NCBI RefSeq assembly: GCF_003933735.1
Contig: NZ_RSED01000001.1
Span: forward strand, 1-64,000
Direction: 5' to 3'
Length of the DNA: 64,000 nt
From: Aquabacterium soli
GTDB taxonomy: Bacteria; Pseudomonadota; Gammaproteobacteria; Burkholderiales; Burkholderiaceae_C
The number at the start of each line of letters is the position of its first letter. The first letter of the stretch is position 1. The translations under genes and the position numbers were made by a program. Under the pieces are notes generated by a model. It searched no databases and had not been told where the DNA came from. It worked only from the letters and a program-made list of their open reading frames with translations. Below, piece by piece: positions 47,326-64,000 of the stretch.

Positions 47326-47534
47326 GCCGTCTCCTTCGTCGCGGTCGCGCCGTGTTGGCGCCGGTCCGGGTGGCGTGCCTGGATGGCCCGGATGGCCGCG
47401 CGGCGGCGCGCGGCCAGGGCGATCTGCTCGGCCGCGATCACGGCCAGCACCATGCCCAGCGATCCCCACACGTACAGGCCGTGGCCACCCATGGCGATCA
47501 AGTCCCGCCAGCTGTTCCAGTTCATCGCGGTCAT
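47322..47534 (-). CDS. ccmD: Haem exporter protein CcmD
   Basis: A 70-aa single-pass protein: [20 protein letters not shown] followed by a membrane helix and a basic cytoplasmic tail ([14 protein letters not shown]), the normal CcmD plan. It holds CcmE to the CcmABC complex. The ATG at 47534 overlaps the ccmC stop as ATGA, deciding the start over an internal ATG at 47525. It is somewhat longer than average CcmD. Confidence 0.93.
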
Positions 47535-49024: not shown

Positions 49025-49668
49025 CAGCAGGTCTCGGCTTCATGGGGCTGCCCCAGACGCAGTTCATGCACATGGGCGCTCAGCGAGGGCGTGGCCTGGT
49101 GGGTGGTGTAGACCAGGATGGCGCCCGAGGCCAGGTGCGCGTTCAGCAGCTCGATCAGCGATGCGGCGGATTCCGCGTCCAGCGCATTGAAGGGTTCGTC
49201 CAGCACGATCAACCGGGGGGCCAGGGGCAAGGCCAAACGGGCCAGCGCGGCGCGGCGCTTCTGCCCCTGTGAGAGTGTTCGAGCCGGCACGTCCAGGTGG
49301 TCGGCCAGGCCCAACCGTCCAAGGGCGTGGGCGGCGGCTTCGGGCGAGCAGCCGTGGCCGGACAGGGCCGAGGCGATGCGCAGGTTCTCGCCCGCGGTGA
49401 GGTCATCCTTCAAGCCACTGCTGTGGCCGATGTAGACCAGTGTCTGGCGAAGGGTGTCGCGCTGGTCCGCATAAGGGCGGCCTTGCCAGCGCAGTTCGCC
49501 GTCCCTGGGCGGCACCAGGCCGCACAGCACGCGCAGCAGACTGGTCTTGCCGCTGCCATTGCGGCCGGTCACGTGCAGCGCCTGACCGGGCGCCACATCG
49601 ATGTCCAGGCCATCGAACAGCCAATGGTTGCCGCGGGCCAGGGCCAATTGTCGGGACTGCAGGCTCAT
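49024..49668 (-). CDS. ccmA: Haem exporter ATP-binding protein CcmA
   Basis: A 214-aa ABC ATPase: Walker A GRNGSGKTS, signature LSQGQKRR, Walker B LIVLDEPFNALD and the switch His in YTTHQ. Size and the short C-terminus are as in other CcmA. It starts 6 bases after the GFA-domain gene stop, which ties the ccm genes to the aldehyde dehydrogenase/rubber oxygenase transcription unit. Confidence 0.95.
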   Translation of the reverse strand: MSLQSRQLALARGNHWLFDGLDIDVAPGQALHVTGRNGSGKTSLLRVLCGLVPPRDGELRWQGRPYADQRDTLRQTLVYIGHSSGLKDDLTAGENLRIASALSGHGCSPEAAAHALGRLGLADHLDVPARTLSQGQKRRAALARLALPLAPRLIVLDEPFNALDAESAASLIELLNAHLASGAILVYTTHQATPSLSAHVHELRLGQPHEAETC

Positions 49669-49674
49669 GGGCGT

Positions 49675-50157
49675 TCAGCCGCCGCTCGGTGGCTGGGTGG
49701 ACAGACACGGCAGGTCGGCGGGCAGGGCCACCCACGGCTGCGCGCTGTCGCACCACAGGTGCATGCGCGGGCGCAGCCAGGTGGGGTCGTCCAGCGTGCC
49801 GGCCTTGACCACCACCAGGCCCGGGCGGGCCGGCAGCTCGGTGGTCACCGGCGAGCCGCACTCGGGGCAGAAGCGGCGGTGCACCGTGTTGCCGCTGTCG
49901 GCCGTGCCCACGTAGGTGCGCAGCTCGCCCTGCAGGGCCAGGTCGACGGCGGGCAACGCGAACAGCACCGAGAAGGCCGAGCCCGATTGCTTCTGGCAAT
50001 CGCGGCAGTGGCACACCATGGCCGCAGCACGGCCGGTCTGCGCGGTGTAGCGCACCTGGCCGCACAGGCAGCCGCCGCTGAGCAGGGCGGCCGTCTTCTG
50101 CGGAGCGGCGGCCGGTGCCGCTGTGCCGGCGTCGGTGGTCGTGGTGGCCGAACTCAT
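49675..50157 (-). CDS. GFA/CENP-V-domain zinc protein
   Basis: A 160-aa protein. The zinc-binding cysteines of the GFA fold are all present: GGCLCGQVRY, VCHCRDCQKQSGSAF and RFCPECGSPV. The first 25 residues are an Ala/Thr-rich leader. The family includes glutathione-dependent formaldehyde-activating enzyme, but most members are uncharacterised. The start overlaps the aldehyde dehydrogenase stop as ATGA, so the pair are coupled. A role in handling reactive aldehydes from the same pathway is plausible inference. Confidence 0.9.
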   Translation of the reverse strand: MSSATTTTDAGTAAPAAAPQKTAALLSGGCLCGQVRYTAQTGRAAAMVCHCRDCQKQSGSAFSVLFALPAVDLALQGELRTYVGTADSGNTVHRRFCPECGSPVTTELPARPGLVVVKAGTLDDPTWLRPRMHLWCDSAQPWVALPADLPCLSTQPPSGG

Positions 50158-51593
50158 GCGCCGGCTCCCGATGCCTGCCCGCCGCGCTTGAGCGAGACGG
50201 TCTGCGGCAGCGTGTACTCCAGCAGGCCATCCTCACCCTGTTCCACACCCAGGCCCGACTGCTTGTGCCCGGCCATGGGCTTGATCGGCGAGATGGTGTG
50301 GATCTCGTTGACCCACACCGTACCCGCCTGCAGGCGCCGGCCGATGGCCAGGCCCTGGGCCTCGTCGGCCGTCCACACCGAGGCCCCCAGCCCGTAGGGC
50401 GAGGCGTTGGCGCGCGCGACGGCATCGTCGATGTCGGTGAAGCGCAGCAGCGGCAGGATCGGGCCGAAGGGCTCTTCCTGCACGATGCGGCTGGATTCGG
50501 GCGGGTTGTCCACCAGCGTGACGGGGAAGAAGTAGCCTGGCTGCTGGGCCACCTCGCCACCCGCCAGGAGGCGCAGGCCCTGCGCCTTGCAATCGGCCAG
50601 CAGGCCCTTGAGCCGCTCGAACTGCGCCTTGTTCTGCACGGGGCCCAGCTCCACGCCGGCCTCGGTGGCCGCGCCCAGCTTCACGCTGCCGGCCAGTTTG
50701 GCCAGCGCCTGCGAGAGCCTGTCGTAGACGGCGTCGTGGATGTACAGGCGCTTGATGGCCAGGCAGAACTGCGCGCTGTTGGCGAAGGCGCCCCAGAAGA
50801 TCAGCGGTGCCACGGCGTTGACGTCGACATCGGGCAGCACGATGGCCGCGTCGTTGCCGCCCAGCTCCAGCGTCAGCCGCTTGAGCGTGGCCGCGCCGCT
50901 TTCCATCACCTTGCGGCCGGTGGCGGTCGAGCCTGTGAAGCTGATCTTGTCGATGCCGGGGTGGGCCGTCATCCAGGGGCCCAGGGCATCGCCGCCGCTG
51001 ACCACGTTGAACACACCGGGCGGCAGGGCATCGCGCAGCAGCTCGCCGAACTTCAGCGCCGTGAGCGGTGTCAACGGCGAGGGCTTGAGCACCATGGTGT
51101 TGCCCGCCAGCAGGGCCGGCGCGATCTTGAAGAAGGCCAGCGCCACGGGAAAGTTCCAGGGCACGATGGCGCCCACCACGCCGATGGGCACGCGGTGCAC
51201 CTGCACCAGCGAGTCGGGCGTGTCGGCCAGGGTGTCGGGCTCCAGCGGCAGCTTGGCCACCTCGGCGCACCAGTGAGCAGAGATCAGCACCTCTTCCTGC
51301 GCCTTGGCCAGGGGCTTGCCCTGCTCTTGCGACAGCAGTTCGCCCAGCGTGGCGGCGTTGGCCGCCAGGACGCCGGCCATGCGGCCCAGCACGGCCCGGC
51401 GCTCGTTCAAGGGCGTGGCCGACCACGCGCTGAAGGCATGGCGGGCGGCGGCCACGGCCTGGTCGAGCTGTTCGCGCGAGCAGTCGGGCGCCGTGCCGAC
51501 CACCTGCTCGGTGGCGGGGTTGACCGCGTTGATCGTGGCGGCGGCGGTGACGGCCTTGCCGTCGATGGTCATGGTGTGGGTGGCAGTGCTCAT
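50154..51593 (-). CDS. Aldehyde dehydrogenase (NAD(P)-dependent)
   Basis: A 479-aa ALDH-superfamily enzyme. Catalytic residues are Asn147 in VPWNFP, Glu243 in LELGGNDAA and Cys277 in NSAQFCLAI; the Rossmann motif is FTGSTATG. It oxidises an aldehyde to an acid. Coupled by ATGA overlaps to the ccmI-like gene before it and the GFA gene after it, and downstream of the rubber oxygenase, it is the natural candidate to oxidise the oxo-aldehydes released from polyisoprene. In actinobacterial rubber pathways an aldehyde-oxidising step plays this part. The substrate is inferred from context. Confidence 0.93.
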   Translation of the reverse strand: MSTATHTMTIDGKAVTAAATINAVNPATEQVVGTAPDCSREQLDQAVAAARHAFSAWSATPLNERRAVLGRMAGVLAANAATLGELLSQEQGKPLAKAQEEVLISAHWCAEVAKLPLEPDTLADTPDSLVQVHRVPIGVVGAIVPWNFPVALAFFKIAPALLAGNTMVLKPSPLTPLTALKFGELLRDALPPGVFNVVSGGDALGPWMTAHPGIDKISFTGSTATGRKVMESGAATLKRLTLELGGNDAAIVLPDVDVNAVAPLIFWGAFANSAQFCLAIKRLYIHDAVYDRLSQALAKLAGSVKLGAATEAGVELGPVQNKAQFERLKGLLADCKAQGLRLLAGGEVAQQPGYFFPVTLVDNPPESSRIVQEEPFGPILPLLRFTDIDDAVARANASPYGLGASVWTADEAQGLAIGRRLQAGTVWVNEIHTISPIKPMAGHKQSGLGVEQGEDGLLEYTLPQTVSLKRGGQASGAGA

Positions 51594-52420
51594 GGGCGTT
51601 GCGGCGAGGCGGTGGTGGTGGGAGGGGGGCCGGAAGGCGTGCCGGTGGAGGCGGCGGGCACCTTGGGCGAGGCGGTCGTTGCAGGCTGTGCGGGCGGTGA
51701 GGCCTGCGGCTCCGTCATCTGGATGGCGTTGCGCAGCTGGTCCGCGAACGGGTGCTTGGGATCGAGGTGGGCCAACGCGGCTTCCCAGTGCTGGCGCGCC
51801 TTGAGGGGCTGGCCCCGTTCCAGCTCGGTCTTGCCCAGCAGGGCATGCGCCATGACGTTGCCTTCGTCCTTCTGGATGGCCCTGTTGAGCAAGGACTCGG
51901 CCTCCTCATTGAGCTTGCGGCCGTTGGCGTAGCCGATGGCCCGGCCCAGGTCGGACAGGGCCTGTGAATCGTCGGGCTTGAGCCGCACCACCTGGCGGTA
52001 GGCCTTGACGGTGTCGGCGGGCTGGTCGAGCACGGTGTAGGCGCGGGCCAGCCGGTCCCAGCCTTCGGCATCGTCGGGCTCCTTCTCCAGCCGTGCGGCC
52101 AGACGGGCCACCATGACGGCGGGGTCGGGGGGCGGTTGCAGCGCGGCGGATGCGCCCGGCACAGCAGCGGGGGATGCTGCGGTGTTCTCGGCCGGTGCGG
52201 CGAGCGGCTGTGCGGCTTCTTCGCCCATGCCGTTGCCTGCCGCAACCGTCTCCGGCGCCTGGGCCTTGTCCCCCGTGCCATTGGCCACGGCGCCCGACGG
52301 GTGGCCCAGCAGGGCGATGCCGGCACCGCTGGTGACGGCGACGAACGTGATCATGCCCGCCAGCAGTCGCAAGGACGGGCGGGATCCTGGAGAGTCTGGG
52401 CTGGTGGAGGGAGAGGTCAT
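51590..52420 (-). CDS. TPR protein, CcmI-like cytochrome c maturation factor
   Basis: A 276-aa protein. One N-terminal membrane helix (LLAGMITFVAVTSGAGIALL) is followed by a Pro/Ala-rich linker (residues 45-100), three to four TPR units (WDRLARAYTVLDQPADTVKA; ALSDLGRAIGYANGRKLNEE; AHALLGKTELERGQPLKARQ) and a Pro/Thr-rich tail. This resembles the periplasmic TPR half of CcmI/CcmH, which binds apocytochrome c C-termini. The position upstream of ccmABCDEFGH supports that reading, though it is separated from ccmH by the whole operon. Its stop overlaps the aldehyde dehydrogenase start. Confidence 0.75.
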   Translation of the reverse strand: MTSPSTSPDSPGSRPSLRLLAGMITFVAVTSGAGIALLGHPSGAVANGTGDKAQAPETVAAGNGMGEEAAQPLAAPAENTAASPAAVPGASAALQPPPDPAVMVARLAARLEKEPDDAEGWDRLARAYTVLDQPADTVKAYRQVVRLKPDDSQALSDLGRAIGYANGRKLNEEAESLLNRAIQKDEGNVMAHALLGKTELERGQPLKARQHWEAALAHLDPKHPFADQLRNAIQMTEPQASPPAQPATTASPKVPAASTGTPSGPPPTTTASPQRP

Positions 52421-52474
52421 GGTGGGGACATGGGCTTGAAGAGGTGGATGACTCGGGCGTTGCCGTTGCGCCTG

Positions 52475-52510: not shown

Positions 52511-52532
52511 GGGGCTCAGGTGGGTGGGTGCC

Positions 52533-54569
52533 TCACAGGGTCTTGAGGTACTCCAGGAGGGCCCAGCGCTCTTCGTCGGTCAGCGACTGCACGAAGTCGT
52601 GGCCGCCATTGCCCTGGCCGTACAGGTGGCTGTTGAACACCATGCGCGACTGGATCTGCTTGTCCGTGACCGGCGGGGGCGACTGGTAGGCCAGCGAGTT
52701 GTTCGCACCCACCGCGTTGGCGATGCCGGCGAACAGCTGGTCGATGGTCGCCATGCCGTTGGAGCAGGGCAGGTAGGGCGATGCGGTGGCCTGGCTGTTG
52801 TTGCACGGCAGGTCCTTGACCTTCCACCCCAGCTTCTTGAAGTCGTACGAAGCGAGGCTGGCGTCGTAGCCCTGGTTCTTGCCGCCGATGCCGGGGGCCG
52901 TGTACTGGCGCTGCCAGATCTTGGGCCGTGCCGACGAGGGCTGGAGCACATCCCACAGCGTGGGCACGCTGCCGTTGTGGAAGTACGGGGCACCCTGCCA
53001 TGCGCCGTACAGCGGCGGTGCCACGTAGCCGAAGGGCTTGAGCCATTCGTTGGGGCCTGTGGGCGAGTAGGTGGGTGGCGCGCCGTAGCCCAGGTCATAG
53101 GTGCGGCGGGGAATGCGGCGCAGCTGGCTGATCAGCTGGTTGTCGTTCCAGCCTTTCCACTTCGGGTTGAGCTCGTTGTAGGCGAACCAGGAGGTCTGCC
53201 AGGCGCGGCGCTTGCGCTCGTCCTGCATCAGGCCGACGCGCTTGTCGTCGGTCAGGATGGTTTCGTACGGCGTGATGACGCCGGCCACGCCCTTGAGGCG
53301 CGGGTCGGGCAGGAAGCTCGGGTTGGCCGCGTGGCGTGGCGAGTAGACGCCGTGGCAGCTGGCGCACGAGCCATTGCCGGGCTGCTTGGGGATGCCCGCA
53401 TTGGCGCCGTTGGCCCACAGGTCGCGCTCGTGGAAGATCACGGCGCCCTTCTCGGCCAGCGGCGTGTCGATGGGGCCCTGGTCCCACTTGGGGGGCGACA
53501 GCGAGATCAGCCAGATGTTGATGTCTTCGAACTCGTAGTAGATGGCGCGGCGCTCGGCGGCGCTGCGCATCACGTTGGCCACCGCGAAGGCCATCTCCGA
53601 TCGCACGTTGTCGGACGTGAGTGCGCCGTCCCAGAACTGGCGGGGCTTCCAGGCCCGGTGCCACCAGTGCGGCGCCTTGGACATGCCGGCCGCATGGCTC
53701 GGGAACCACTCCATCAGGCTGGGCGACAGCAGGATGGAGTCCATGTCCCAGATGGCGGGCAGGGCGTCCACGATGCCGATGGCATCGGTGGTGCCGCGGC
53801 CCACGCTCCAGGGGATGGGCGCCAGCTGCAGCACGGCTGTGACGCCGTTGGCGCGGAAGATGTCCGACTGGGTCACGCCCGCGTCGTTGGCATCGTTGGA
53901 GCGGCCCCAGGCGAAGGGACGCTCGCCGGGGTTGCCGACGCGCGAGTCGTGGCAGGCCGAGCACGTCACGCCCACCAGGCCGTTCCACTTGCCGTCCTTG
54001 CCCTTGTCCTGCATGAAGCCCAGGGGCAGCTGGCCGCTGCCGCCATTGGTCTTGTTGGGGTCCTCGCCCGGCAGCGGGTAGGGGTTGCGGTATTCGGCAG
54101 AGGTGTAGCCGTAGCGCTTGATCACCTGTTCATCGAAATCCGCGGGGCGGCTCTTGAGCCCCCACACCTTCCACAGGTTGGCATAGCCGGTGGCCGTGCT
54201 GAAGGGCTGGAAATACTGTTTGCCGGTGATGTACTTGTAGCCGCGGTACGCGGCTGCACGGTACTGGCCGCAGGTCTGCGGCCGCGCTGGCAGCTTGGCC
54301 ACGTAGGGCTCGGGCGGGTTGTGCAGATCCACGTAGAAGGCGTTGAACTGGATGGCCGTGCCCGGCTTGTTGACACCTTCCTTGACCAGCATGCGCGGGT
54401 CCACCGGCAAGGGTGTCGCATCGGGCTTGCCTTCGCAGGCCGCGGCCCAGGGCGCGCGGATGTCCTGCATGTCGAGCAAGGGGAGGTCGGCGGCCAGGGC
54501 ATGGCCTGCCAGCGTCAGGAACGCAAGGGCGGCGGCGGGCTGGACGGCCCGCCTGGGGGATGTGTTCAC
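52533..54569 (-). CDS. Rubber oxygenase, RoxA/RoxB (LatA) family dihaem c-type cytochrome
   Basis: A 678-aa secreted protein with a signal peptide ending near GHALAA. Two c-type haem sites are Cys203-Ser-Ala-Cys206-His207 and Cys402-Ala-Ser-Cys405-His406. RoxA has the same CSACH and CASCH sites, at His195 and His394. Between them lie Phe312-Trp313 (RQFWDGAL) and Phe328 (EMAFAV), matching RoxA Phe301-Trp302 and Phe317 in identity and 16-residue spacing. RoxA-type enzymes cleave the double bonds of cis-1,4-polyisoprene with O2, giving oxo-aldehydes (ODTD). The start is GTG 54569, with AGGAG eight bases upstream; the length equals the family norm. It is head gene of the ccm/aldehyde dehydrogenase run and diverges from CoA-metabolism genes across two operator palindromes. 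RoxA versus RoxB is not decided here. Confidence 0.9.
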   Translation of the reverse strand: MNTSPRRAVQPAAALAFLTLAGHALAADLPLLDMQDIRAPWAAACEGKPDATPLPVDPRMLVKEGVNKPGTAIQFNAFYVDLHNPPEPYVAKLPARPQTCGQYRAAAYRGYKYITGKQYFQPFSTATGYANLWKVWGLKSRPADFDEQVIKRYGYTSAEYRNPYPLPGEDPNKTNGGSGQLPLGFMQDKGKDGKWNGLVGVTCSACHDSRVGNPGERPFAWGRSNDANDAGVTQSDIFRANGVTAVLQLAPIPWSVGRGTTDAIGIVDALPAIWDMDSILLSPSLMEWFPSHAAGMSKAPHWWHRAWKPRQFWDGALTSDNVRSEMAFAVANVMRSAAERRAIYYEFEDINIWLISLSPPKWDQGPIDTPLAEKGAVIFHERDLWANGANAGIPKQPGNGSCASCHGVYSPRHAANPSFLPDPRLKGVAGVITPYETILTDDKRVGLMQDERKRRAWQTSWFAYNELNPKWKGWNDNQLISQLRRIPRRTYDLGYGAPPTYSPTGPNEWLKPFGYVAPPLYGAWQGAPYFHNGSVPTLWDVLQPSSARPKIWQRQYTAPGIGGKNQGYDASLASYDFKKLGWKVKDLPCNNSQATASPYLPCSNGMATIDQLFAGIANAVGANNSLAYQSPPPVTDKQIQSRMVFNSHLYGQGNGGHDFVQSLTDEERWALLEYLKTL

Positions 54570-54701
54570 GGTGTGTTCTCCTGGATCACCTGGTGGGGAT
54601 CGCTGTCTCAGCGAGGGGACCTTGTGCGCCGCCGCGGGCAAATACCGGCCGAGGTCGGTGGCGCAGGGTCGAACAGTAGGGCTTGGCTCCTGCGCCAGCT
54701 C

Positions 54702-54717
54702 TCGTCAGATCTGACGA
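54702..54717. promoter_or_regulatory. Operator palindrome 1 of the rubber regulon
   Basis: TCGTCAGATCTGACGA is a perfect 16-bp palindrome, 132 bases upstream of the rubber oxygenase start and 136 upstream of the racemase-family start. Related copies are at 54768-54783 and 61694-61709. Confidence 0.7.
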
Positions 54718-54767
54718 TTTTTGGGGCGGCCATTGCGCGTGCGATGGACCCCGTTTCCGGGTGCGCC

Positions 54768-54783
54768 TCGTCGGTTCTGACGA
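54768..54783. promoter_or_regulatory. Operator palindrome 2 of the rubber regulon
   Basis: TCGTCGGTTCTGACGA matches operator 1 at 13 of 16 positions. It lies 70 bases upstream of the racemase-family ATG, centre-to-centre 66 bp from operator 1. Confidence 0.65.
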
Positions 54784-54853
54784 TGGCTTGTTGGCCGTGC
54801 TTGAGCCACCATGCGGCCCTCGGCCAGGGTTGCTGGCTTGCAGGAGGCACTTG

Positions 54854-56008
54854 ATGTCGGGTCCCTTGACAGGGCTGAAGGTGATAGAGATGGCCGGCGC
54901 CGGCCCCACCCCCTTCGGCGCGATGATGCTGGCGGACATGGGTGCCGCCGTGTTGCGCATCGCGGGAGCAGGTGCTCCCACGCAGGACGACCCGCGCGAC
55001 GTGACGACCCGCGGGCGCCAGACCCTGCCGCTGGACCTGGCGCGGCCCGAGGCGGTGGACACCTTCCTGCACCTGGTCGAATCGGCGGATGTGCTGATCG
55101 AAGGACACCGGCCTGGCGTGATGGAAGGCTGGGGCCTGCCGCCCGAGGTGTGCCTGGCCCGCAACCCCCGCCTGGTCTATGCCCGTGTCACGGGCTGGGG
55201 CCAGTACGGCCCGCTGGCGCACACCGCCGGCAATGACATCAACCACATCGCCATCAGCGGCGCCCTGCACGCCATGGGCCGCGACAGCGACACCCCGGCG
55301 CCGCCCTTGAATGTGCTGGGCGATGCCGGAGGGGGCGGCATGCTGCTGACCTTCGGCGTGCTGGCCGCGCTGTACGAGGCGCAGCGCTCGGGCCATGGGC
55401 AGGTCGTGGATGCCGCCTGTGTCGACGGCGCGGCCCTGATGTCCTCGGCCCTGTACGGCTTCAAGGCCGCGGGCCAGTGGAGCAACCAGCGTGGCGCCAA
55501 TCTGCTCGATGGCGGCGCGCACTTCTACGACACCTACGCCTGTGCCGACGGCAAGTACGTGGCCATCGGGGCGATCGAGCCGCGCTTCTACGCCCAGTTG
55601 CTGGAGCTGTGCGGCGTGCAGGACCAGGCCTTCGACGTGCAGATGGATGCCGCGCGCTGGCCGCTGCTCAAGCTGCGCATGGCCGATGTGTTCCGCACCC
55701 GCACCCGCGACGAGTGGTGCCGCATCCTGGAGGGCAGCGACGCCTGCTTCTCGCCCGTGCTCGACTGGGACGAAGCGCCCCGCCATCCCCACAACCGCGC
55801 CCGCGAGACCTTCGTGTCCGTCGATGGCGTGGTGCAGCCTGCGCCCGCGCCCCGCTTCAGCCGCACACCCGCGACACCGCCGCGCCGCCGAGTTCCCCAG
55901 CAGCCGGACCACGTGCTGCGCGACTGGGGCCTGAGCGAGGCGGGCCTGGCCCGCTGGCGCGGCGGTCCCGGCCAACCAGAGTCGTCAGTACCCACCGAGG
56001 GCCGCTAG
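54854..56008 (+). CDS. CaiB/BaiF family protein, alpha-methylacyl-CoA racemase-like
   Basis: A 384-aa protein that starts at ATG 54854 after CAGGAGG. Residues 1-35 ([20 protein letters not shown]) and [20 protein letters not shown] are diagnostic of the alpha-methylacyl-CoA racemase (AMACR/Mcr) branch. These enzymes interconvert 2R/2S-methylacyl-CoA so beta-oxidation of methyl-branched chains can proceed, and Mcr is part of actinobacterial rubber catabolism. The catalytic Asp is present (Asp157), but the usual catalytic His of AGHDINY is Asn127 here (AGNDINH). Activity or stereochemistry may differ. It is first in a three-gene run with acyl-CoA synthetase and acyl-CoA dehydrogenase and diverges from the rubber oxygenase. 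Confidence 0.9.
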
Positions 56009-56037
56009 GCCCCGGACACAACGAAGGAGACCTCCCC

Positions 56038-57594
56038 ATGCAACTGACCCAAGCCTTGCACAAGGCCGTGCGCGAATGCCCCAACGCCCTGGCCGTGGCC
56101 TGTGGCGACCAGGAACTGAGCTTCCGGCAACTGGCCGACCGCGTGGCCCGCCTGGCCGGCGTGCTGCGCCAGCTGGGCATGCAGCCCGGCGACCGTGTCG
56201 GCATGATGGCGCTGAACTCCATCCGCTACGTGGAGTACCTCTACGGCGTGTGGTGGGGCGGTGGCGTGATCAACCCCGTCAACGTGCGCTGGAGCCCGGC
56301 CGAGGTCGGCTATTCGCTCGACGACTGCGACACCCGCATCTTGCTGGTGGACCGCTACTTCGCGCCGCAGGCAGCCTTGCTGCGCGAGACCTCGCAATGT
56401 CTCAAGACCCTGGTGTACTGCGACGATGGCGAAGTGCCGGCCGGCATGCTGGGCTACGAGCAGCTGATGGCCGAGGCCCAGCCCGCGCAAGACCGTCGCC
56501 ATCAAGGCGAGGACCTGGCCGCGGTGATGTACACGGGCGGCACCACTGGCAAGCCCAAGGGTGTCACGCTCACGCACACCAACCTCTACCTCAATGCCCT
56601 GAGCGCCGTGGCCGCTGTGCCCCGCCCGGGCGACAAGGTGGGCCTGGTGGTCGCGCCGTTCTTCCATGTGGCCGGCTGCGGCCTGTCGCTGCAGCTGATC
56701 CAGCGCCTGGCCACGCAGATCGTCGTGCCCATGTTCGACGAGGTCGTGATCCTGCAAGCCATCGAAAAACGCAAGGTCACCGAGAGCTTCCTGGTGCCCA
56801 CGATGATCAAGCGCCTGGTCGACCACCCGCGCTTCAAGGAGTTCGACCTGTCCAGCCTGGGCATGCTGCTGTACGGCGCGGCCCCGATCGATGAGGCCTT
56901 GCTCGACCAGGCCATGAAGGCCCTGCCGCACACCGAGTTCTGCCAGGCCTACGGCATGACGGAGCTGGCGCCCACCATCTCGGTGCTGCTGCCGCAGGAC
57001 CACCGGCCCGGCCCGGACCAGGCGCGCCGCCTGCGCTCGGCCGGCCGCCCCGTGCCGATCGCCGAGGTGCGCATCGTCGACCCCGCCGGCCAGGAGGTGC
57101 CCGCGGGCACCGTGGGCGAGATCGTGGCCCGCGGGCCCATGGTGATGAAGGGCTACTGGAACAAGCCCGAGCAGACCGCGGCCGCCCTGCGCGATGGCTG
57201 GATGCACACCGGCGATGGCGGCTACATGGACGAAGAGGGCTACCTCTACGTGGTCGACCGCATCAAGGACATGATCGTGACGGGCGGCGAGAACGTCTAC
57301 ACCGCCGAGGTGGAGAACGCCATCGCGCAGCTGCCGCAGGTGTCGATGTCGGCCGTGATCGGCGTGCCCGACGACCACTGGGGCGAGCGCGTGCACGCCG
57401 TGGTGGTGCTGCGCGAGGGCGCCTCGCTGGACGAGGCCGCGCTGATCGCCCATTGCAAGGCGCTGATCGCCGGCTACAAGTGCCCGCGCAGCGTCGAGTT
57501 CCGCAAGGAGCTGCCGGTGTCGCCGGCCGGCAAGCTGCAGAAGTTCATCCTGCGCGAGCCCTTCTGGGCCGGCCGCACGCGCGCCATCAACTGA
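56038..57594 (+). CDS. Acyl-CoA synthetase (AMP-forming)
   Basis: A 518-aa ANL-superfamily ligase. The P-loop is YTGGTTGKPKG (residues about 165-175), then YGMTE, HTGDGGYMDEEGYLYVVDR, and the C-terminal catalytic Lys in SPAGKLQKF. It activates a carboxylic acid with ATP and CoA. AAGGAG precedes the ATG, 29 bases after the racemase-family stop. In this setting the acid is presumably the oxidised rubber-cleavage product; the length and motifs fit medium/long-chain or aromatic acid ligases equally. Confidence 0.93.
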   Translation: MQLTQALHKAVRECPNALAVACGDQELSFRQLADRVARLAGVLRQLGMQPGDRVGMMALNSIRYVEYLYGVWWGGGVINPVNVRWSPAEVGYSLDDCDTRILLVDRYFAPQAALLRETSQCLKTLVYCDDGEVPAGMLGYEQLMAEAQPAQDRRHQGEDLAAVMYTGGTTGKPKGVTLTHTNLYLNALSAVAAVPRPGDKVGLVVAPFFHVAGCGLSLQLIQRLATQIVVPMFDEVVILQAIEKRKVTESFLVPTMIKRLVDHPRFKEFDLSSLGMLLYGAAPIDEALLDQAMKALPHTEFCQAYGMTELAPTISVLLPQDHRPGPDQARRLRSAGRPVPIAEVRIVDPAGQEVPAGTVGEIVARGPMVMKGYWNKPEQTAAALRDGWMHTGDGGYMDEEGYLYVVDRIKDMIVTGGENVYTAEVENAIAQLPQVSMSAVIGVPDDHWGERVHAVVVLREGASLDEAALIAHCKALIAGYKCPRSVEFRKELPVSPAGKLQKFILREPFWAGRTRAIN

Positions 57595-57625
57595 CCCCGT
57601 TCTTCACTTCAGCCAGAGAGGCGTC

Positions 57626-58774
57626 ATGACGCTGGACACCCGTCGCTCCTGGAGCGACCCCGACCTTGATCTGTTCCGTGACAACGTGGCGCGCTTCGTC
57701 GAGAACGAAGTGCTGCCGCACGATGAAGAGGCCCGCCGCCGCGGGAATGTGGGCCACGCGCTGTGGCACAAGGCCGGCGCCAACGGCCTGCTGTGCACGG
57801 ACATCCCCGAGCAGTACGAAGGCGGCGGCGGTGATTTCCGCCACGAGGCCATCGTGTACGAGGAGCTGGCACGCCGCGCCCTCACCGGCATCAGCACCTC
57901 GGTGCATGCCATCGTGGCGCACTACATCCTCAACCACGGCACAGAAGCGCAGCGGCAGGCCTACCTGCCGCGCATGGCGCGTGGCGAGCTGGTGGGCGCC
58001 ATCGCGATGACCGAGCCCGGCACTGGCTCGGACCTGCAGGCCATCCGCGCCAAGGCCGACAAGCGTGACGGGGGCTATGCGATCTCCGGCACCAAGACCT
58101 TCATCACCAACGGCTACCTGGCCGGGCTGGTGCTGGTGGTGGCCAAGACCGATCCGGCGCAGGGGGCGCGCGGCACGTCCATCCTGATTGTCGAGACCCA
58201 GGATTGCAAGGGCTACAGCGTGGGCCGCGTGCTCGACAAGATCGGCCTGAAGGCGCAGGACACCTCGGAGCTCTTCTTCGACGAGGTGTGGGTGCCCGAG
58301 GACCGCATACTGGGCGGCGAAGAAGGCAAGGGCTTCTTCCAGCTGATGAGCGACCTGCCCTACGAGCGCCTGATCATCGGCGTGACGGCCCTGGCCGCCA
58401 TGGAAGGCGCCTACGAGGCCACGCTGGCCTACACGCGCGAGCGCAAGGCCTTCGGCAAGCCAGTGGCCGATTTCCAGAACACGCGCTACAAGCTGGCCGA
58501 GGTGGCCACGCAGATCAAGGTGGGCCGGGCCTTCATCGACCAGTGCGTCGAGCGCCTGGTGGCCGGCACGCTGGACACGGCCACGGCCTCCATGGCCAAG
58601 CTGTGGGCCACCGAGGCCCAGGGCCGCGTGGTCGACGAGTGCCTGCAGCTGTTCGGCGGCTACGGCTACATGAACGAGTACATGATCGCCCGCATGTACG
58701 CGGATGCGCGGGTGCAGCGCATCTACGGCGGCACCAACGAGATCATGAAAGAGGTGATCGCCCGGGCGCTGTGA
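57626..58774 (+). CDS. Acyl-CoA dehydrogenase (IVD/LCAD-type active site)
   Basis: A 382-aa FAD enzyme introducing the 2,3-double bond in acyl-CoA. Signature segments are AMTEPGTGSDLQAI, FITNGYLAG, TRERKAFGKPV and QLFGGYGYMNEY. The C-terminal position that holds the catalytic Glu in MCAD/SCAD (YEGT) is Gly368 (YGGT). Instead Glu247 in LPYERLIIG occupies the helix-G position used by isovaleryl-CoA and long-chain acyl-CoA dehydrogenases. That arrangement is typical of enzymes for branched or bulky acyl chains and fits methyl-branched isoprenoid intermediates. It follows the ligase after 31 bases and is convergent with the LuxR gene. Confidence 0.95.
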   Translation: MTLDTRRSWSDPDLDLFRDNVARFVENEVLPHDEEARRRGNVGHALWHKAGANGLLCTDIPEQYEGGGGDFRHEAIVYEELARRALTGISTSVHAIVAHYILNHGTEAQRQAYLPRMARGELVGAIAMTEPGTGSDLQAIRAKADKRDGGYAISGTKTFITNGYLAGLVLVVAKTDPAQGARGTSILIVETQDCKGYSVGRVLDKIGLKAQDTSELFFDEVWVPEDRILGGEEGKGFFQLMSDLPYERLIIGVTALAAMEGAYEATLAYTRERKAFGKPVADFQNTRYKLAEVATQIKVGRAFIDQCVERLVAGTLDTATASMAKLWATEAQGRVVDECLQLFGGYGYMNEYMIARMYADARVQRIYGGTNEIMKEVIARAL

Positions 58775-58810
58775 AGCGACCCAGCGTGCCGCTGACCCGC
58801 GCGGGCGGGA

Positions 58811-61564
58811 TCAGCGGATGACCGCCAGCTTGCGCGCGATGGCCACGGCCTGCGTGCGGCTGTGCGTGCCCAGCTTGAGGTTGATGTTGCGCAGGTGGGT
58901 GCGCACGGTGCTGTCCGAGACGAACAGCTTCTCGGCCATGGCGCCGTTGGAGTAGCCCTCGGCCAGCAGCTGCAGCACGCGGATCTCCTTGCGCGTCAGC
59001 GGCTCGGCCAGCGGCTGGGTGGCTGCGCCGGCCGGGTCCGCATCGCCCATCGACACGGGGCCGACGATCTTGAGCAGGCGCTGCAGGTACTCGTCGAAGA
59101 TGGGGTCGGTGGGCTCGTGCGCATGGGCGGGTGCCTGTGCCCGCGATTGCAGGTGGGCGTGGCAACGGTGCAGCAGCACGGCCACGGCCGGGCCTTCGTC
59201 CAGGATCAGGCGGATGAAGCCGTCGTGGCAGGTCTGGCGCAGCACGGCCAGCAAGGTTTCGGTGGCGCCGAGGATGTCGCCTGTTCGCTGCTGGGCCAGG
59301 GCCTGCAGCACGCGCAGCTTGAACACGCGGCCATGACGCGTGCGTGACTGCGCATCGACGATCTCTTCCTGCAGCGCGCCCATGGCCTGCTGTGCATCAC
59401 CGAAGCAGATGTCCCAGCGCAGGCGCGCCAGGCGCAGGTCATGCAGCTCGTGCGCGGGCAGGCGCTGCCGGGCCACCCGTTGCCACAGGATCTGGTCGTT
59501 GGCCCGGGCCAGTTCGTCACGCGATGCCTGGGCATGGCCCTGCAGCAGCAGCATGCGCGAGCGCTCGAGCTTGGCGCTGGCCACCACGCGCGGCAACTGG
59601 CGGTGATGCCCCAGGTACTCCAGTTCGGTCAGCACGTGGAAGGCGGCGTCGATGTCGCCGCGCTGGAAGGCGATGCGCGAGCGCAGCACATGGCTCAGGA
59701 TCATGTGGTCGGGCAGGCCCACGTCGCGCGCCAGCGGCAGGTACACATTGAGCAGGTGCTCCGACTGATCGAGCTGATCGAGCTCGTACACCACCGAGGC
59801 ATAGAAGATGCCCGCCCAGGCGTGTCCGTTGGTGTGGTTGTAGGTGCTGGTGCCACCCGTCACGGCCATCCGAAAGCGCGCCGTGGCCTGGCGCAGCCGG
59901 CCCTCCTGCAGATCGAGCAGGCCTTCCATCGACTCCGTGTACATGCGCACGAACAGGCTCGAGCCCTGCGTGGCTCGGGCCGCATCGAGCAGGCGGTGCG
60001 CCTCGTGGTGGTGCCCCATCACGGACACCACGTTGGCCATGGCGTTGGTGAGCACGCTGTCGGCGAAGGGGCTGGCGCTGGGCAGCGTGGCGAGGCTTTC
60101 ATGGCCGACGCGGTAGGCATCCTCGTAGCGGTCCATCATCGCCAGCAGCAGTGGCCGCAGCGCATTGACATTGGCGCTGACGGCCGGGTCGCTGCCTGCA
60201 TCGGGGTGGATGCACTCCAGCTGCGCCATGGCCTGCCAGGGGCCCTGCGTGAAGCAGGTGGCCCAGACCCGGATGGCCTGCAGGCGTGGATGGGAGCTCA
60301 GGGCCTCGTCGGGGATCACGCTGAACCACCGGCCCAGCAGCCGCAACTGGCCCTTGAACAGGAACTCGTCCGCGTGCGGTTCGAGCAGGGACAGGGCGTG
60401 GGGAAAGTCTCCGCCCTCGATGGCATGCTCCACGGCGGGCACGGTCTGGCCCTGTGATTCATGCCAGGCCGAGGCTGCCAGGTGCAGGCGCGGCAGATCT
60501 TCAGGGTGCTCGCGCGCCAGCTGGTTGCGCAGGAAGTCGGCGAACAGGCTGTGGTAGCGCCAGCGCGGCCCCGTGTCGTCCGTGGGCGTGACCGGCGTGA
60601 GGAAGAGGTTGGCGCTGTCGAGCTGTTCAAGGATGCGGGCGCTGTCCAGGCGCGGGTTCAGCGCCTGGCACACCGAGGTGTTGAGCTGGCGCAGGATGCT
60701 GGTGCGCATGAGGAACTCGCGCACCTCCGGCCCCTGATGGGCCAGCACGTCCTCGGCCAGGTAGTCGGCGATGGCCCTGTTCGATCCCGAGAAGCGCTCG
60801 ATGAAATCGCTGTCGGTGCCACGGCGGTCCAGCGCCATCGAGGCCAGCCACAGCGCGGCCACCCAGCCTTCGGTCTTGCTGTGGAGCTGTGCCAGCGATT
60901 CGGCCGGCAGGGCATGCGCGCTGCGCAGCTGGAAGAAGTGCGTGGTCTCTTCCAGGCTGAAGCGCAGGTGTTCGGTGTCCACCTCGACCAGCTGACCACG
61001 CGCCCTCAGACGTCCCATGCCCAGGTCGGGCAGCCCGCGCGACCCGATCACGAGCTGGCCCCGGCGCGGCAGGTGGTCGATGATCTCGCGCACCAGGCCC
61101 AGCACCGCCGGCTCCTGGATCAGTTCGAAGTCATCGAGGAACAGGGCGAAGGGCCCGCTGTGGCGGGTCAGCGATTCGACCACGTCCACCGGCGTGCCAT
61201 GGGCCATGGGCTCCAGCGCGAGGCGGGTGGCGGCGGCGTTGAGCCCCAGCAGGAAGCGCGACACGTCGTTGTCGGCCCGGTCCAGTGTGAGCCAGGCGGT
61301 GGCAACGCCCTGTTCTTCGAGGCCGGCGCGTGCCTGCAGCATGGCCGTGGTCTTGCCGAACCCGGCGGGCGCACGCACCAGCACCAGCTTGGCGGCTGTG
61401 GCCTGCACGATCCGCTCGCAGGCGGCCGTGCGCAGCACCTGCAGGGCGCTGGCGCCCAGGGGGTTGAGTTTCGAGGCCAGTGCGGGCGATGGCGGCGTCA
61501 TCGGCGTGTTCATGTCCGTGGCGCTCGGGTCGGCGGGGGCGGTGGGCGAGGAGACGGGAGGCAT
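58811..61564 (-). CDS. MalT-type large LuxR-family regulator (LAL/STAND ATPase)
   Basis: A 917-aa protein. The N-terminal STAND NTPase has Walker A APAGFGKTT, Walker B ALFLDDFEL and sensor GSRGLPDLGM; a long helical/TPR-like middle (residues about 330-800) follows. The C-terminal LuxR HTH is LTRKEIRVLQLLAEGYSNGA then SDSTVRTHLRNINLKLG. Such proteins bind an inducer, oligomerise with ATP and activate catabolic operons. Start ATG 61564 has AGGAA upstream; ATG 61513 is an alternative. It sits between two parts of the rubber locus and diverges from the thiolase gene over an operator palindrome, so it is the prime candidate regulator. Confidence 0.92.
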   Translation of the reverse strand: MPPVSSPTAPADPSATDMNTPMTPPSPALASKLNPLGASALQVLRTAACERIVQATAAKLVLVRAPAGFGKTTAMLQARAGLEEQGVATAWLTLDRADNDVSRFLLGLNAAATRLALEPMAHGTPVDVVESLTRHSGPFALFLDDFELIQEPAVLGLVREIIDHLPRRGQLVIGSRGLPDLGMGRLRARGQLVEVDTEHLRFSLEETTHFFQLRSAHALPAESLAQLHSKTEGWVAALWLASMALDRRGTDSDFIERFSGSNRAIADYLAEDVLAHQGPEVREFLMRTSILRQLNTSVCQALNPRLDSARILEQLDSANLFLTPVTPTDDTGPRWRYHSLFADFLRNQLAREHPEDLPRLHLAASAWHESQGQTVPAVEHAIEGGDFPHALSLLEPHADEFLFKGQLRLLGRWFSVIPDEALSSHPRLQAIRVWATCFTQGPWQAMAQLECIHPDAGSDPAVSANVNALRPLLLAMMDRYEDAYRVGHESLATLPSASPFADSVLTNAMANVVSVMGHHHEAHRLLDAARATQGSSLFVRMYTESMEGLLDLQEGRLRQATARFRMAVTGGTSTYNHTNGHAWAGIFYASVVYELDQLDQSEHLLNVYLPLARDVGLPDHMILSHVLRSRIAFQRGDIDAAFHVLTELEYLGHHRQLPRVVASAKLERSRMLLLQGHAQASRDELARANDQILWQRVARQRLPAHELHDLRLARLRWDICFGDAQQAMGALQEEIVDAQSRTRHGRVFKLRVLQALAQQRTGDILGATETLLAVLRQTCHDGFIRLILDEGPAVAVLLHRCHAHLQSRAQAPAHAHEPTDPIFDEYLQRLLKIVGPVSMGDADPAGAATQPLAEPLTRKEIRVLQLLAEGYSNGAMAEKLFVSDSTVRTHLRNINLKLGTHSRTQAVAIARKLAVIR

Positions 61565-61693
61565 GGCGGTTCCTGCGTTCTGTGGGCGTGCCGCATCACC
61601 GCGGGCGGCGTGCACCAGGATCTGCCGGGATTCTCCGCCCGCATTAATGTGCTTGTCTGTTCGGGCAATACCTAGGCCCGGGTGCACGCCATT

Positions 61694-61709
61694 CCGTCGG
61701 TTCCGACGA
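61694..61709. promoter_or_regulatory. Operator palindrome 3 of the rubber regulon
   Basis: CCGTCGGTTCCGACGA, with perfect arms CGTCGG/CCGACG, lies 58 bases upstream of the thiolase ATG and 129 bases upstream of the LuxR start. It matches operator 2 at 14 of 16 positions. Confidence 0.65.
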
Positions 61710-61767
61710 TGGGCGTGGGGTTGGGGGTTGCCTAGAGTCGGGCGGCCATCTCAGCCCAGGGAACCGC

Positions 61768-62973
61768 ATGAACGATGTGTTTGTCTATGACCATGTGCGC
61801 ACGCCGCGGGGCAAGGGCCGCCCGGACGGGGCGCTGCATGCGACCACCCCGGTGCGGCTGGCCGCCCGCGTGCTGCAGGGCCTGCGCGAGCGCAATGGGT
61901 TCCAGGCGGCCGACATCGATGACGTGGGGCTTGGCGTCGTCATGCCTGTGGGCGAGCAGGGCGCCGACATCGCGCGCGCGGCCTTGCTGGAGGCGGGGTA
62001 TGGCGACCATGTCACGGGCTATCAGCTCAACCGCTTCTGCACCTCGGCACTGGACACGGTCAAGATGGGGCATGCGCTGATCGCGGCCGGCCAGGCCGAT
62101 GCCGCGATCGGCGGTGGCGTGGAATCCATGTCGCGCGTGGCCATCGGCAGCGACGGCGGCGCCACCTACACCGATCCCGCGGTGGGCCGGCACCATCCCT
62201 ACATCCCCAACGGCGTGGCGGCCGATCTGATGGCCACGCTCGAGGGGCTGACGCGCGAGCAGCTCGACGCCTATGCCTGTGAAAGCCAGCGCCGCGCGGC
62301 GGCAGCGCAGGCCGGCGCTTACTTCGATCGGTCCCTGCTGCCGGTGCTTGACGAACTCGGTCGACCGGTGCTGACGCGTGACGAAGCCCTGCGGCCCAGC
62401 ACCACGATGGCCGATCTGGCCAAGCTCAAGCCCGTGTTCGCTGGCCTGGGAGAGGAGGGCTTCGACAGCATCGTGCTGCGGCGCTATCCACAGCTGATGG
62501 GCGTTGAACACCTGCACACCAGCGGCAACGCCAGCGGCATCGTCGATGGGGCCTGCGCCGTGCTGCTGGGCAACCATGCCTTCGGCCAGCGGGCGGCCCT
62601 GCGGCCGCGCGCACGCATCCTGGCCAGCGCCAGTGGCGCCTCCGAACCCCTGCTGAGCCTGGGCGGGCCCATGCCTGTCACCCAGCGGGCGCTGGACCGC
62701 TGTGGCATGAGCATCCGTGACATCGACCTGTTCGAGGTCAACGAAGCCTTCGCGGTCGTGCCCCTGGCCTACATGCGCCACTTCGACATCGACCCGGCGC
62801 GCGTGAACGTCAATGGCGGTGCCATTGCGCTGGGCCACCCGCTGGGGGCCACCGGCGCCATCCTGCTGGGCACCGTGCTTGACGAGCTCGAACGGCGCGG
62901 TGCCTCCACCGGCCTGGTCACCCTGTGCGCGGCGGCCGGGCAGGCCACGGCCCTGATCATCGAACGGACCTGA
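61768..62973 (+). CDS. Acetyl-CoA acyltransferase (thiolase)
   Basis: A 401-aa thiolase. The nucleophilic Cys91 is in NRFCTSALD, with GGGVESMSR, NEAFAVV, His357 in NGGAIALGHPLGATG and the second Cys387 in TLCAAAGQATA. The last motif is normally CxGGGxG; the CAAAG form is unusual. It cleaves 3-ketoacyl-CoA with CoA, the last step of a beta-oxidation round. It diverges from the LuxR gene over operator 3 and is followed after 11 bases by the enoyl-CoA hydratase-type gene. Confidence 0.93.
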   Translation: MNDVFVYDHVRTPRGKGRPDGALHATTPVRLAARVLQGLRERNGFQAADIDDVGLGVVMPVGEQGADIARAALLEAGYGDHVTGYQLNRFCTSALDTVKMGHALIAAGQADAAIGGGVESMSRVAIGSDGGATYTDPAVGRHHPYIPNGVAADLMATLEGLTREQLDAYACESQRRAAAAQAGAYFDRSLLPVLDELGRPVLTRDEALRPSTTMADLAKLKPVFAGLGEEGFDSIVLRRYPQLMGVEHLHTSGNASGIVDGACAVLLGNHAFGQRAALRPRARILASASGASEPLLSLGGPMPVTQRALDRCGMSIRDIDLFEVNEAFAVVPLAYMRHFDIDPARVNVNGGAIALGHPLGATGAILLGTVLDELERRGASTGLVTLCAAAGQATALIIERT

Positions 62974-62984
62974 GGACACGGGCC

Positions 62985-64000
62985 ATGCGCGAACAACAGT
63001 GGGACAACCTGAGCCTGTCCGTCGATGCGAACGGGGTGGCCTTGCTCACCATCGATGTCAAGGGACGCTCGGACAACGCCTTCACCCCGGGCTTCCTGGC
63101 CGATCTGGGCGCCGCGATCGCCCACGTGACGGGCCATGCCGAGATCTGCGGCCTGGTCCTGGCCTCGGGCAAGCTCACGGGCTTTTGCAGCGGTGCGGCG
63201 CCCGAAGACCTGCTGGCCGTGCATGAGGCCGGCCTCACGCCCCCGCAGATCCTGGAGGTGCTGGCCCCGGCCCAGCAGTTGATCCGCGCGCTGGAGCGGT
63301 GCGGCAAGCCCGTGGCGGCGGCCATCCAGGGCCCGGCCCTGGGCGGCGGGTTCGAACTGTGCCTGGCCTGCCACCACCGCGTGCTGGCCGACAGTTCGCG
63401 CGCCGTCGTGGGCCTGCCGGAGGTCGGTTTCGGCGTGCTGCCGGGCGGTGGTGGTACCCAACGCCTGCCACGCCTGATCGGCATCCCGGCGGCCTTGCCG
63501 CTGCTGCTGTCTGGCCGACAGGTGGCCCCGACCGAGGCCTTGCAGATCGGCCTGGTGGACCAGGTGGTGAATGCCAGGGATGTGATCCCTGCCGCGCGCC
63601 GTTGGGTGCTGGCCAATGCCGAGGCCGTGCAGCCCTGGGATGTCAAGGGCTTCAAGCTGCCGGGAGGCGCTGGTGCGTTGGCGCCGCATGCCTCGGCCAG
63701 CTTTGGCCTGGGCGTGGCCCGCGTGCGCCGCGACACGCAGGACAACGAGCCCGCGCCTCTGGCCATCCTGTCGTGCGTTTATGAAGGCACGCAATTGCCG
63801 ATCGACCAGGCCCTGGCCCTGGAGGCACGCCATTTCAGCCTGCTGCTGGCCGGCGCCGTGGCCCGCAACCGATTGCGGACCCTGTTCGTGAACGGCCCAC
63901 GCCTGACGCGCCAATGGGCCGCGGCCACCCGCTATCCGGCCGACCGCTGCGCGGGCAGGCTGGTGCGGGCCCATGCGGATGAAGCGCAGGCCCTGGCCGC
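62985..64000 (+). CDS. Enoyl-CoA hydratase / 3-hydroxyacyl-CoA dehydrogenase (FadB/FadJ-like), 3' truncated
   Basis: Open from ATG 62985 to the window end (338 residues so far). The crotonase domain has KPVAAAIQGPALGGGFELCL and VGLPEVGFGVLPGGGGTQRL, containing both catalytic Glu positions. Continuation without a stop beyond 330 residues, longer than a stand-alone hydratase (about 260), suggests the bifunctional protein with a C-terminal hydroxyacyl-CoA dehydrogenase. That dehydrogenase part lies outside the window, so I infer it. GAGGAC precedes the ATG. With the thiolase it would complete beta-oxidation of the rubber-derived acyl-CoAs. Confidence 0.88.
   Translation, partial: MREQQWDNLSLSVDANGVALLTIDVKGRSDNAFTPGFLADLGAAIAHVTGHAEICGLVLASGKLTGFCSGAAPEDLLAVHEAGLTPPQILEVLAPAQQLIRALERCGKPVAAAIQGPALGGGFELCLACHHRVLADSSRAVVGLPEVGFGVLPGGGGTQRLPRLIGIPAALPLLLSGRQVAPTEALQIGLVDQVVNARDVIPAARRWVLANAEAVQPWDVKGFKLPGGAGALAPHASASFGLGVARVRRDTQDNEPAPLAILSCVYEGTQLPIDQALALEARHFSLLLAGAVARNRLRTLFVNGPRLTRQWAAATRYPADRCAGRLVRAHADEAQALA

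Follow-up and report, generated by a model that had tools for sequence, protein, structure and literature searches.

The stretch of DNA analysed here comprises 64,000 nucleotides of Aquabacterium soli (NCBI RefSeq assembly GCF_003933735.1, contig NZ_RSED01000001.1, positions 1 to 64,000; this whole stretch is referred to as the window) and contains a gene for a dihaem rubber oxygenase of the RoxA type, situated among genes for cytochrome c maturation (ccm) and acyl-CoA metabolism. The open reading frame (ORF) of roxA lies on the minus strand (52533..54569), begins with a GTG start codon and encodes a protein of 678 amino acids with a predicted signal peptide (..AGHALA/ADLP, assigned by eye). 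Reading of the same interval on the plus strand gave no gene. Downstream of roxA and on the same strand are genes for a tetratricopeptide repeat (TPR) protein, an aldehyde dehydrogenase (ALDH) and a GFA-family protein, followed by ccmABCDEFGH. Divergently upstream are those for an alpha-methylacyl-CoA racemase (AMACR)-family protein, an acyl-CoA synthetase (FACS), an acyl-CoA dehydrogenase (ACAD), a MalT-like regulator (on the minus strand), a thiolase and an enoyl-CoA hydratase-domain protein (ECH).

The 678-aa protein was scored at 1274.6 bits by the NCBIfam model for RoxA (cut-off 1000), with the models for RoxC (595.6 bits) and RoxB (510.8 bits) each remaining under their own cut-off of 900. 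Comparison to the solved RoxA structure 4b2n, from Steroidobacter cummioxidans 35Y, gave 63% identity with a phmmer E-value of 2.7e-281, which together with the RoxA model score places the match far above chance. The haem, axial-ligand, F317, W302 and MauG-motif residues of the 35Y enzyme were all found to be shared: CSACH (H207) aligns with H195, FW (312-313) with F301/W302, F328 with F317, CASCH (H406) with the axial histidine H394, the MauG motif PYFHNGSVP (H531) with H517, and H657 with the axial ligand H641. Most of these 35Y residue numbers are those given in the available part of PMC6311187. On a tree of 18 rows, built from RoxA and RoxC-like proteins only, with RoxB and MauG rows left out, the protein joined the 11 other RoxA rows, and the split from the six RoxC-like rows had a support of 100/100. 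The equivalent of W302 is changed in all six RoxC-like rows and that of F317 in three of them, while both are kept in the 678-aa protein.

An initial annotation, made from the sequence, had predicted a RoxA-family oxygenase from the CSACH and CASCH sites and the FW and F residues between them, and this was borne out by the NCBIfam score, the 4b2n alignment and the RoxA clade. It had named a grouping with MauG/cytochrome c peroxidase-like proteins as a contrary outcome; within the tree of RoxA and RoxC-like rows the protein fell among the RoxA proteins. By all sequence tests run, then, the protein is a RoxA, an already known kind of enzyme, for which polyisoprene cleavage and secretion are predicted. 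That it is a RoxC-like or MauG/cytochrome c peroxidase-like dihaem protein devoid of rubber activity is highly improbable: such proteins belong to the same fold family, and no activity was seen with the two RoxC proteins that have been expressed to date (PMC10837239, available part), but the score passes the RoxA cut-off and neither of the other two, the W302 and F317 equivalents are kept, and the RoxA clade is fully supported. According to the available text of PMC5979037, strain 35Y carries roxB too, whereas the window genome yielded neither RoxB nor another Rox gene.

The RoxA model exceeded its cut-off in one of 299 genomes of the family (the window genome, labelled G000, being the sole match at E 1e-100), in one of 369 genomes of the class, where two further matches, both in G323, stayed below it, and in three of 42 genomes of the genus, namely G000 and two others labelled G666 and G681. 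Two roxA genes are present in each of G666 and G681 and one in G000. The second copies, of a CSGCH type, lie on C95 in G666 and at C13:50403-52415 in G681, beside a second malT gene (malT2) and acyl-CoA dehydrogenase genes. A tblastn search of the corresponding part of the G000 contig (80-112 kb) gave no match to this second roxA, and its place is occupied by a reading frame for a GMC oxidoreductase (contig 92423-94069, named after a 66% relative in Roseateles). Plasmid-borne RoxA was not detected, as 10 of 72,556 plasmid records matched and none did so with 80% coverage; eight of the matches were at 26-29% identity, and the other two, at 51%, covered 7% of the query.

On the upstream side of roxA, the AMACR-family gene (54854..56008, plus strand) is followed on the same strand by the genes for FACS (56038..57594, start set by eye; 523.9 bits with NF004837, cut-off 476) and ACAD (57626..58774), then by the minus-strand gene of the MalT-like regulator (58811..61687, start uncertain), of LuxR type with a TPR region, and by plus-strand genes for the thiolase (61768..62973; 557.9 bits with NF006090, cut-off 514) and the ECH protein (62985..64000, running on to 64439 of the contig). 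On the downstream side, all on the minus strand, the gene for the TPR protein (51590..52420) is followed by that for the ALDH (50154..51593; 491.9 bits with PF00171, motifs ELGGN and NSAQFC), which overlaps each of its neighbours by 4 bp, also has a counterpart in a Roseateles roxA row and is a candidate for oxidation of the oxo-aldehyde ODTD, and by that for the GFA-family protein (PF04828; 49675..50157), with a 56% orthologue in the roxA locus of Povalibacter. From the TPR gene to ccmH, the genes overlap or are at most 30 bases apart.

This arrangement recurs in G681 and G666. In G681 the order ccmH..ccmA-gfa-aldh-TPR-roxA, then AMACR-facs-acad-malT-thiolase-ech, is as in G000, with synteny between the two spanning 43.8-93.4 kb of the G000 contig; genes of G681 past its second roxA had no match in the 80-112 kb part of that contig. 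In G666 the block follows the G000 order to the end of its contig, where thiolase and ech are not present. Beyond the window, the G000 contig continues with genes for a FabK/NMO-like flavoprotein, FadB, short-chain dehydrogenases/reductases (SDRs), thiolases, ECHs, acyl-CoA dehydrogenases, a second CoA-transferase III protein, an alcohol dehydrogenase (ADH) and a second MalT-like regulator 51% identical to the first. It also contains a complete four-gene row encoding DUF1302, DUF1329, YCF48-like and HAE3 RND proteins (contig 80105-86984), for which a transport function is predicted. This is the gene set of the AmeABCD monoterpene transporter of Castellaniella defragrans, which the available part of PMC6394551 reports as an exporter; the set here lies outside the window. 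The island is accordingly taken to begin at 43.8 kb of the contig (C1) and to end at about 94 kb, a length of about 50 kb.

All of the neighbours listed in the initial annotation (ALDH, AMACR-type protein, acyl-CoA synthetase, acyl-CoA dehydrogenase, thiolase and ECH) are thus present. The interval it quoted, 52533..64000, fits them in part, as the ALDH gene lies outside it and the ECH gene runs past the window. Its description of the locus as complete did not hold, since the island begins at 43.8 kb and fadB, the flavoprotein, the ameABCD-type transporter and the GMC oxidoreductase all lie outside the window. The ccm genes (43847-49668), the TPR protein and the promoter palindromes were not among the features it described.

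In more distant loci, beta-oxidation genes again adjoin roxA. The roxA locus of Roseateles YR242 has orthologues of malT, acad, facs, the TPR gene and the ALDH gene at 53-73%, with no AMACR gene and no ccm genes in the sequence examined. That of Povalibacter has orthologues of fadB, NMO, a second thiolase (thiolase2), TLP1 and the GFA gene at 56-72%, and the loci of two Corallococcus genomes and of Comamonas KCTC 72670 contain a different set (ECH-thiolase-ACAD-ACAD-synthetase).

A 16-bp palindrome with the consensus TCGTC-N2-WW-N2-GACGA was identified in the intergenic regions of the island. Two copies, TCGTCAGATCTGACGA (54702..54717) and TCGTCGGTTCTGACGA (54768..54783), lie between roxA and the AMACR-family gene, and both recur in G666, G681 and Roseateles; a third, CCGTCGGTTCCGACGA (61694..61709), with one mismatch, lies between malT and the thiolase gene. 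With a looser pattern (at most two mismatches), five matches were found in the window against 0.68 expected, two of these, each with two mismatches, being outside the island. The pattern TCGTC-N6-GACGA occurs eight times in the 49,590-bp island against six times in 1,295,125 bp elsewhere, which is about 24% of the rest of the genome (Fisher p 8e-9). When an A/T pair in the middle was required, the count was eight against zero (Fisher p 3e-12), but the first count is the cleaner test because this condition was chosen after seeing the sites. Neither 29 permuted half-sites nor other spacers of 0-12 gave more than one match in the island. Given likely start codons, all eight boxes are intergenic, although some fall inside ORFs of a rough gene caller. 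They are located at the promoter region of roxA and at five further promoter regions of the island: two between roxA and the AMACR gene, one before fadB, two between TLP1 and the CoA-transferase gene, one between the ADH gene and that of an MpaB-like protein, one between the DUF1302 gene and malT2, and one between an ACAD gene and the GMC oxidoreductase gene. Boxes with the A/T pair were also counted in other RoxA loci, with eight in G681, five in Roseateles, three in G666 and two in Povalibacter (one of them just before roxA); none was found in the loci of two Corallococcus genomes, a Myxococcaceae metagenome-assembled genome, Comamonas, Spongiibacter and Zhongshania.

The box was also found in other genera. 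In 14 of 29 loci it precedes an intact AMACR gene by 53-113 bp; the 29 are the best matches with loci from a longer list of homologues, at 58-72% identity. Wider stretches were examined for 18 of the 29, from genomes of the family sample in which the window genome alone has a RoxA match, and 16 of them contain the box. Homologues of acad (69-80%) were present in 13, malT (48-64%) in nine, facs (58-72%) in seven, an SDR gene (SDR1, 79-84%) in six, thiolase2 (74-82%) in six and fadB (63-65%) in two. Box-bearing AMACR-ACAD-MalT clusters of other Burkholderiales genera thus consist of genes homologous to those of the island at about 48-84% and share the palindrome, but have no roxA that could be found and an AMACR that is intact. 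As the box and the CoA genes are found together in these genera, it is concluded from comparative sequence evidence that roxA was plugged into an older Burkholderiales regulon, which probably acts on methyl-branched acyl-CoAs. The view that the CoA genes are rubber-specific has to be given up. It is nevertheless rather unlikely that they serve another methyl-branched substrate, such as a sterol side chain, an acyclic terpenoid or phytol-type acids, with RoxA a late add-on that feeds into their pathway or is unrelated to it. The RoxA-less neighbourhoods with box and CoA genes are what that explanation would lead one to expect, but within the genus the FACS orthologue (at least 84% identity) is confined to the three RoxA genomes of the 42, boxes stand at roxA itself, and Povalibacter, a gammaproteobacterium, has fadB, NMO, thiolase2 and TLP1 orthologues together with the box beside its roxA. 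A fourth FACS match, at 56% in G673, which has no RoxA match, is a paralogue.

The AMACR-family (CoA-transferase III) protein was found to be closest to 2-methylacyl-CoA racemases and matches Mcr of Mycobacterium tuberculosis (1x74) with an E-value of 1.7e-111. The pair His126/Asp156, with Glu241, is catalytic in AMACR. Asp127 and Glu241 are kept in the window protein, but, unlike in 1x74, position 126 is Asn in two of the three RoxA species, G000 among them, and Cys in the third, and both Arg38 and Arg91 are lost in all three; position 156 is Asp in two and Glu in one, and Glu241 is kept throughout. The full catalytic set is therefore lacking. By contrast, His126, Asp127, Asp156, Glu241 and Arg38 are kept in 29 of 29 homologues of other genera, where position 91 is Arg in 26 and Lys in three. 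A distant paralogue in G673 (31%) has kept the histidine and the acids and has not kept the arginines. No other AMACR was found in the window genome at E 1e-70 or better, with six of 16 candidates scored. The ratio dN/dS, calculated by the NG86 method, was 0.10 for G000 against G666 and 0.26 against G681, for which dS is high. Among 14 valid comparisons, from which the paralogous thiolase match of G666 was dropped, the first value is the lowest and the second falls in mid-range. The low value indicates that the protein is maintained and is not decaying. Racemisation by this protein is, on these residues, unlikely. The AMACR-type step of the initial annotation therefore fell away, although it was a reasonable inference, as rubber use is reportedly lost when mcr is disrupted (Arenskotter 2008, cited in the available part of PMC8538451); the AMACR of this rubber locus is a natural case of loss of the catalytic base, although Mcr is required elsewhere according to that report. 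The protein may have been repurposed, in that trisubstituted double bonds could let rubber-derived acids through beta-oxidation without a racemisable centre, or it may now act as a CoA-transferase, for which Asp127 is kept.

The ccm genes, all on the minus strand, comprise ccmA (49024..49668; 224.4 bits with NF010061, cut-off 195), ccmB (48356..49024; 237.8 bits with PF03379), ccmC (47531..48325; PF01578 match, WGTWWVWD), a candidate ccmD of 70 aa assigned by position (47322..47534), ccmE (46867..47325; HDENY and position), ccmF (44882..46870; WGGWWFWD), ccmG (44322..44876; WCAAC and position) and ccmH (43847..44320; RCLVC and position). Each of the three rox-linked sets of the genus contains the motifs checked, which are those of ccmA, C, E, F, G and H, so that a System I set with its catalytic motifs is in place, ccmD being assigned by position and ccmB by its Pfam match. 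An Rrf2-family regulator (43293-43964, minus strand) follows directly after ccmH and was not seen after ccmH in G666.

Besides the rox-linked set, the window genome encodes System II and, on C24, a second Ccm set whose genes follow the canonical order and end with that for CcmI. Canonical CcmI, as on C24, consists of a CcmI-1 part with two transmembrane stretches and a TPR part. The TPR protein of the roxA locus differs from this in having one N-terminal transmembrane stretch ahead of its TPR domain and in being encoded 5' of ccmA; it scored 63.9 bits with PF23914 (cut-off 42) and 40.4 bits with the NrfG model, under the cut-off of 306, and is described here as CcmI/NrfG-like. Its gene adjoins roxA in G666, G681 and Roseateles, and in the last of these the TPR and ALDH genes stay next to roxA without ccm. 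Being NrfG-like and next to roxA in the absence of ccm fits a client-specific chaperone, and the protein is proposed to act as a chaperone of apo-RoxA. NrfEFG is the dedicated haem lyase of the nitrite reductase NrfA, and there too an NrfG-like TPR protein is tied to one cytochrome by gene order; unlike NrfEFG, the roxA locus has a whole CcmA-H set, its client has ordinary CxxCH motifs, and the NrfG match is under its cut-off.

The ccmF gene was found in 25 of the 42 genomes of the genus, and two matches were found in all three RoxA genomes. On a tree of 30 CcmF proteins (of 34 matches, the four without loci being left out), the three rox-linked copies formed one clade with a support of 100/99, apart from the 27 other copies of the genus, which include the second copies of the same RoxA genomes. 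CcmF was found somewhere in all seven RoxA genomes searched besides the window genome; in Roseateles and Povalibacter it and roxA lie on separate contigs. The available text of PMC5979037 describes the 35Y ccm cluster as a separate transcriptional unit, whereas in A. soli the cluster adjoins the roxA region. Given this and the location of ccmF in Roseateles and Povalibacter, the physical link between ccm and roxA is a feature of this lineage and no rule for RoxA.

The locus as a whole is best read as an island for RoxA-type rubber degradation that arose as the older acyl-CoA regulon gained roxA and a cytochrome c maturation set, with a probability of about 0.72. That the surrounding genes form one unit is argued by the gene order in G681 and G666, the co-occurrence of FACS with RoxA and the common palindromes. 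This supports the single pathway proposed by the initial annotation, whose interpretation as a whole was borne out in part. Several observations weigh against the island reading. We know of no phenotype, and no RoxB partner turned up in the 42 genomes of the genus when searched with the RoxA model. The box and the CoA genes occur in genomes without a roxA that could be found. The ALDH has no visible signal peptide, against the extracellular aldehyde oxidation that the published pathway expects (PMC5979037, available part). Two ccmF matches were also found in six of the 39 RoxA-less genomes of the genus, and the link of ccm to roxA was seen within this genus only (three of nine distinct RoxA genomes inspected, over about 10 kb around roxA and less in L025). 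Against G681, dN/dS was 0.30-0.50 for the Ccm genes, 0.23 for roxA and 0.17-0.28 for the CoA genes, so that the Ccm genes are less constrained. In a second CcmF tree (20 of the 30 proteins with those of Roseateles and Povalibacter), the rox-linked copies grouped together (100/100) as sister to nine ordinary copies of the genus (90/82), with G681 on a long branch and less surely placed. Finally, a gap of 112 bp separates roxA from the TPR gene, and a single roxA-ccm transcript would have to span it; no terminator-like site was detected on the minus strand in 52300-54950 and no box with at most one mismatch between 46986 and 54701, as expected if the two share a transcript. Sigma-70 consensus promoters were also not found in 52300-54950.

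The sister position of the rox-linked CcmF to ordinary copies of the genus suggests that the Ccm set did not travel with roxA and was probably recruited locally, diverging later. It also lends some weight to a doubtful but serious alternative, in which the ccm operon is an ordinary one for general cytochrome c maturation and roxA merely landed upstream of it, as do the frequency of ccmF in the genus, its double presence in RoxA-less genomes and its separate contig in Povalibacter and Roseateles. Against this stand the second, canonical-order Ccm set and System II of the window genome, the TPR-ALDH-GFA genes that separate roxA from ccmA in each of the three species, the TPR-ALDH pair that follows roxA in Roseateles without ccm, and the single clade of the rox-linked copies, with its long G681 branch. 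Dedication of the rox-linked Ccm set to RoxA, which is suggested by gene order, the separate clade and the presence of a second set, has a chance somewhat below even. A fuller version is put forward more tentatively, namely a private RoxA maturation machine, made up of a truncated CcmI/NrfG-like chaperone and a CcmA-H set that diverged and evolved alongside roxA, controlled by a regulator that reads the boxes, combined with a repurposed AMACR.

Under the island reading, a regulator, for which the two MalT-like proteins are candidates, would read the TCGTC-N6-GACGA boxes and thereby activate roxA and the genes downstream of it together with the CoA genes and those of the transporter. Apo-RoxA would be exported to the periplasm by Sec and held by the TPR protein while CcmA-H attach its two c-type haems. 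Cleavage of polyisoprene to the C15 oxo-aldehyde ODTD is the known chemistry of RoxA, and the mature enzyme would leave the cell and carry out this step. ODTD may then be oxidised by the ALDH or the GMC oxidoreductase and taken up; the acyl-CoA synthetase would activate the product, which the ACAD, FadB and thiolase set would then shorten.

The locus offers candidates for several steps of rubber use. In the available part of PMC5979037, the aldehyde-oxidising enzyme of the pathway is called unknown, and the uptake route of a Gram-negative rubber degrader is said possibly to differ from the known one. The ALDH or GMC oxidoreductase would be candidates for the former, the ameABCD-type transporter for the latter, and the TPR protein with the rox-linked ccm genes for RoxA maturation. 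Active RoxA was not obtained in recombinant Escherichia coli even with a ccm plasmid, and another maturation system was assumed to be necessary for it as a MauG-motif dihaem protein (PMC6311187, available part). A private Ccm set, if present, could help to explain this difficulty, and the private maturation machine, if real, would be the different system assumed by the field for such proteins. Although RoxA itself is familiar, three features are unusual: the neighbouring, separately evolved Ccm set with its NrfG-like TPR protein, a box that reaches genera without a RoxA that could be found, and an AMACR that is conserved despite the loss of its catalytic base. The box provides a DNA handle for finding further members of the regulon. 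In the literature searched, which leaves out most subscription papers, no roxA-ccm gene row, no paper linking rubber or oligoisoprene with RND or DUF1302 proteins and none on the active site of AMACR were found. The Rhizobacter gummiphilus locus did not turn up among the rubber papers, and Aquabacterium was absent from the 12 matches listed, of 6,186, for rubber, polyisoprene or latex.

Contig 79083-80117 encodes a protein that has the catalytic domain of MpaB/Lcp rubber oxygenases (PF09995); a box lies at 79002, and no counterpart was listed in G681. Its identification as a latex-clearing protein was rejected, as no Lcp structure was matched at E up to 1 and the sole match was a weak one to trans-anethole oxygenase (E=0.0012). 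It is possibly an intracellular C=C cleaving enzyme.

The roxA locus of Comamonas sp. KCTC 72670 (L023) encodes a RoxA at 80-82%, with neighbours mostly 75-91% identical to those of Corallococcus/Myxococcaceae, in a genome of 9 Mb whose CcmF and that of Corallococcus lie equally far from the query. This locus reflects either a recent transfer or a mislabelled assembly. In Spongiibacter pelagi (L029, 7439-14262), three RoxC-like genes were found in tandem, with the F317 equivalent kept in two. No tRNA genes were found in the window or in L114, L115, L073 and L077. The G+C content is about 0.57-0.60 in the first 20 kb of the window and about 0.69 in the island, and Rhs-repeat and transglutaminase proteins are encoded at 3709-11173 of the window.

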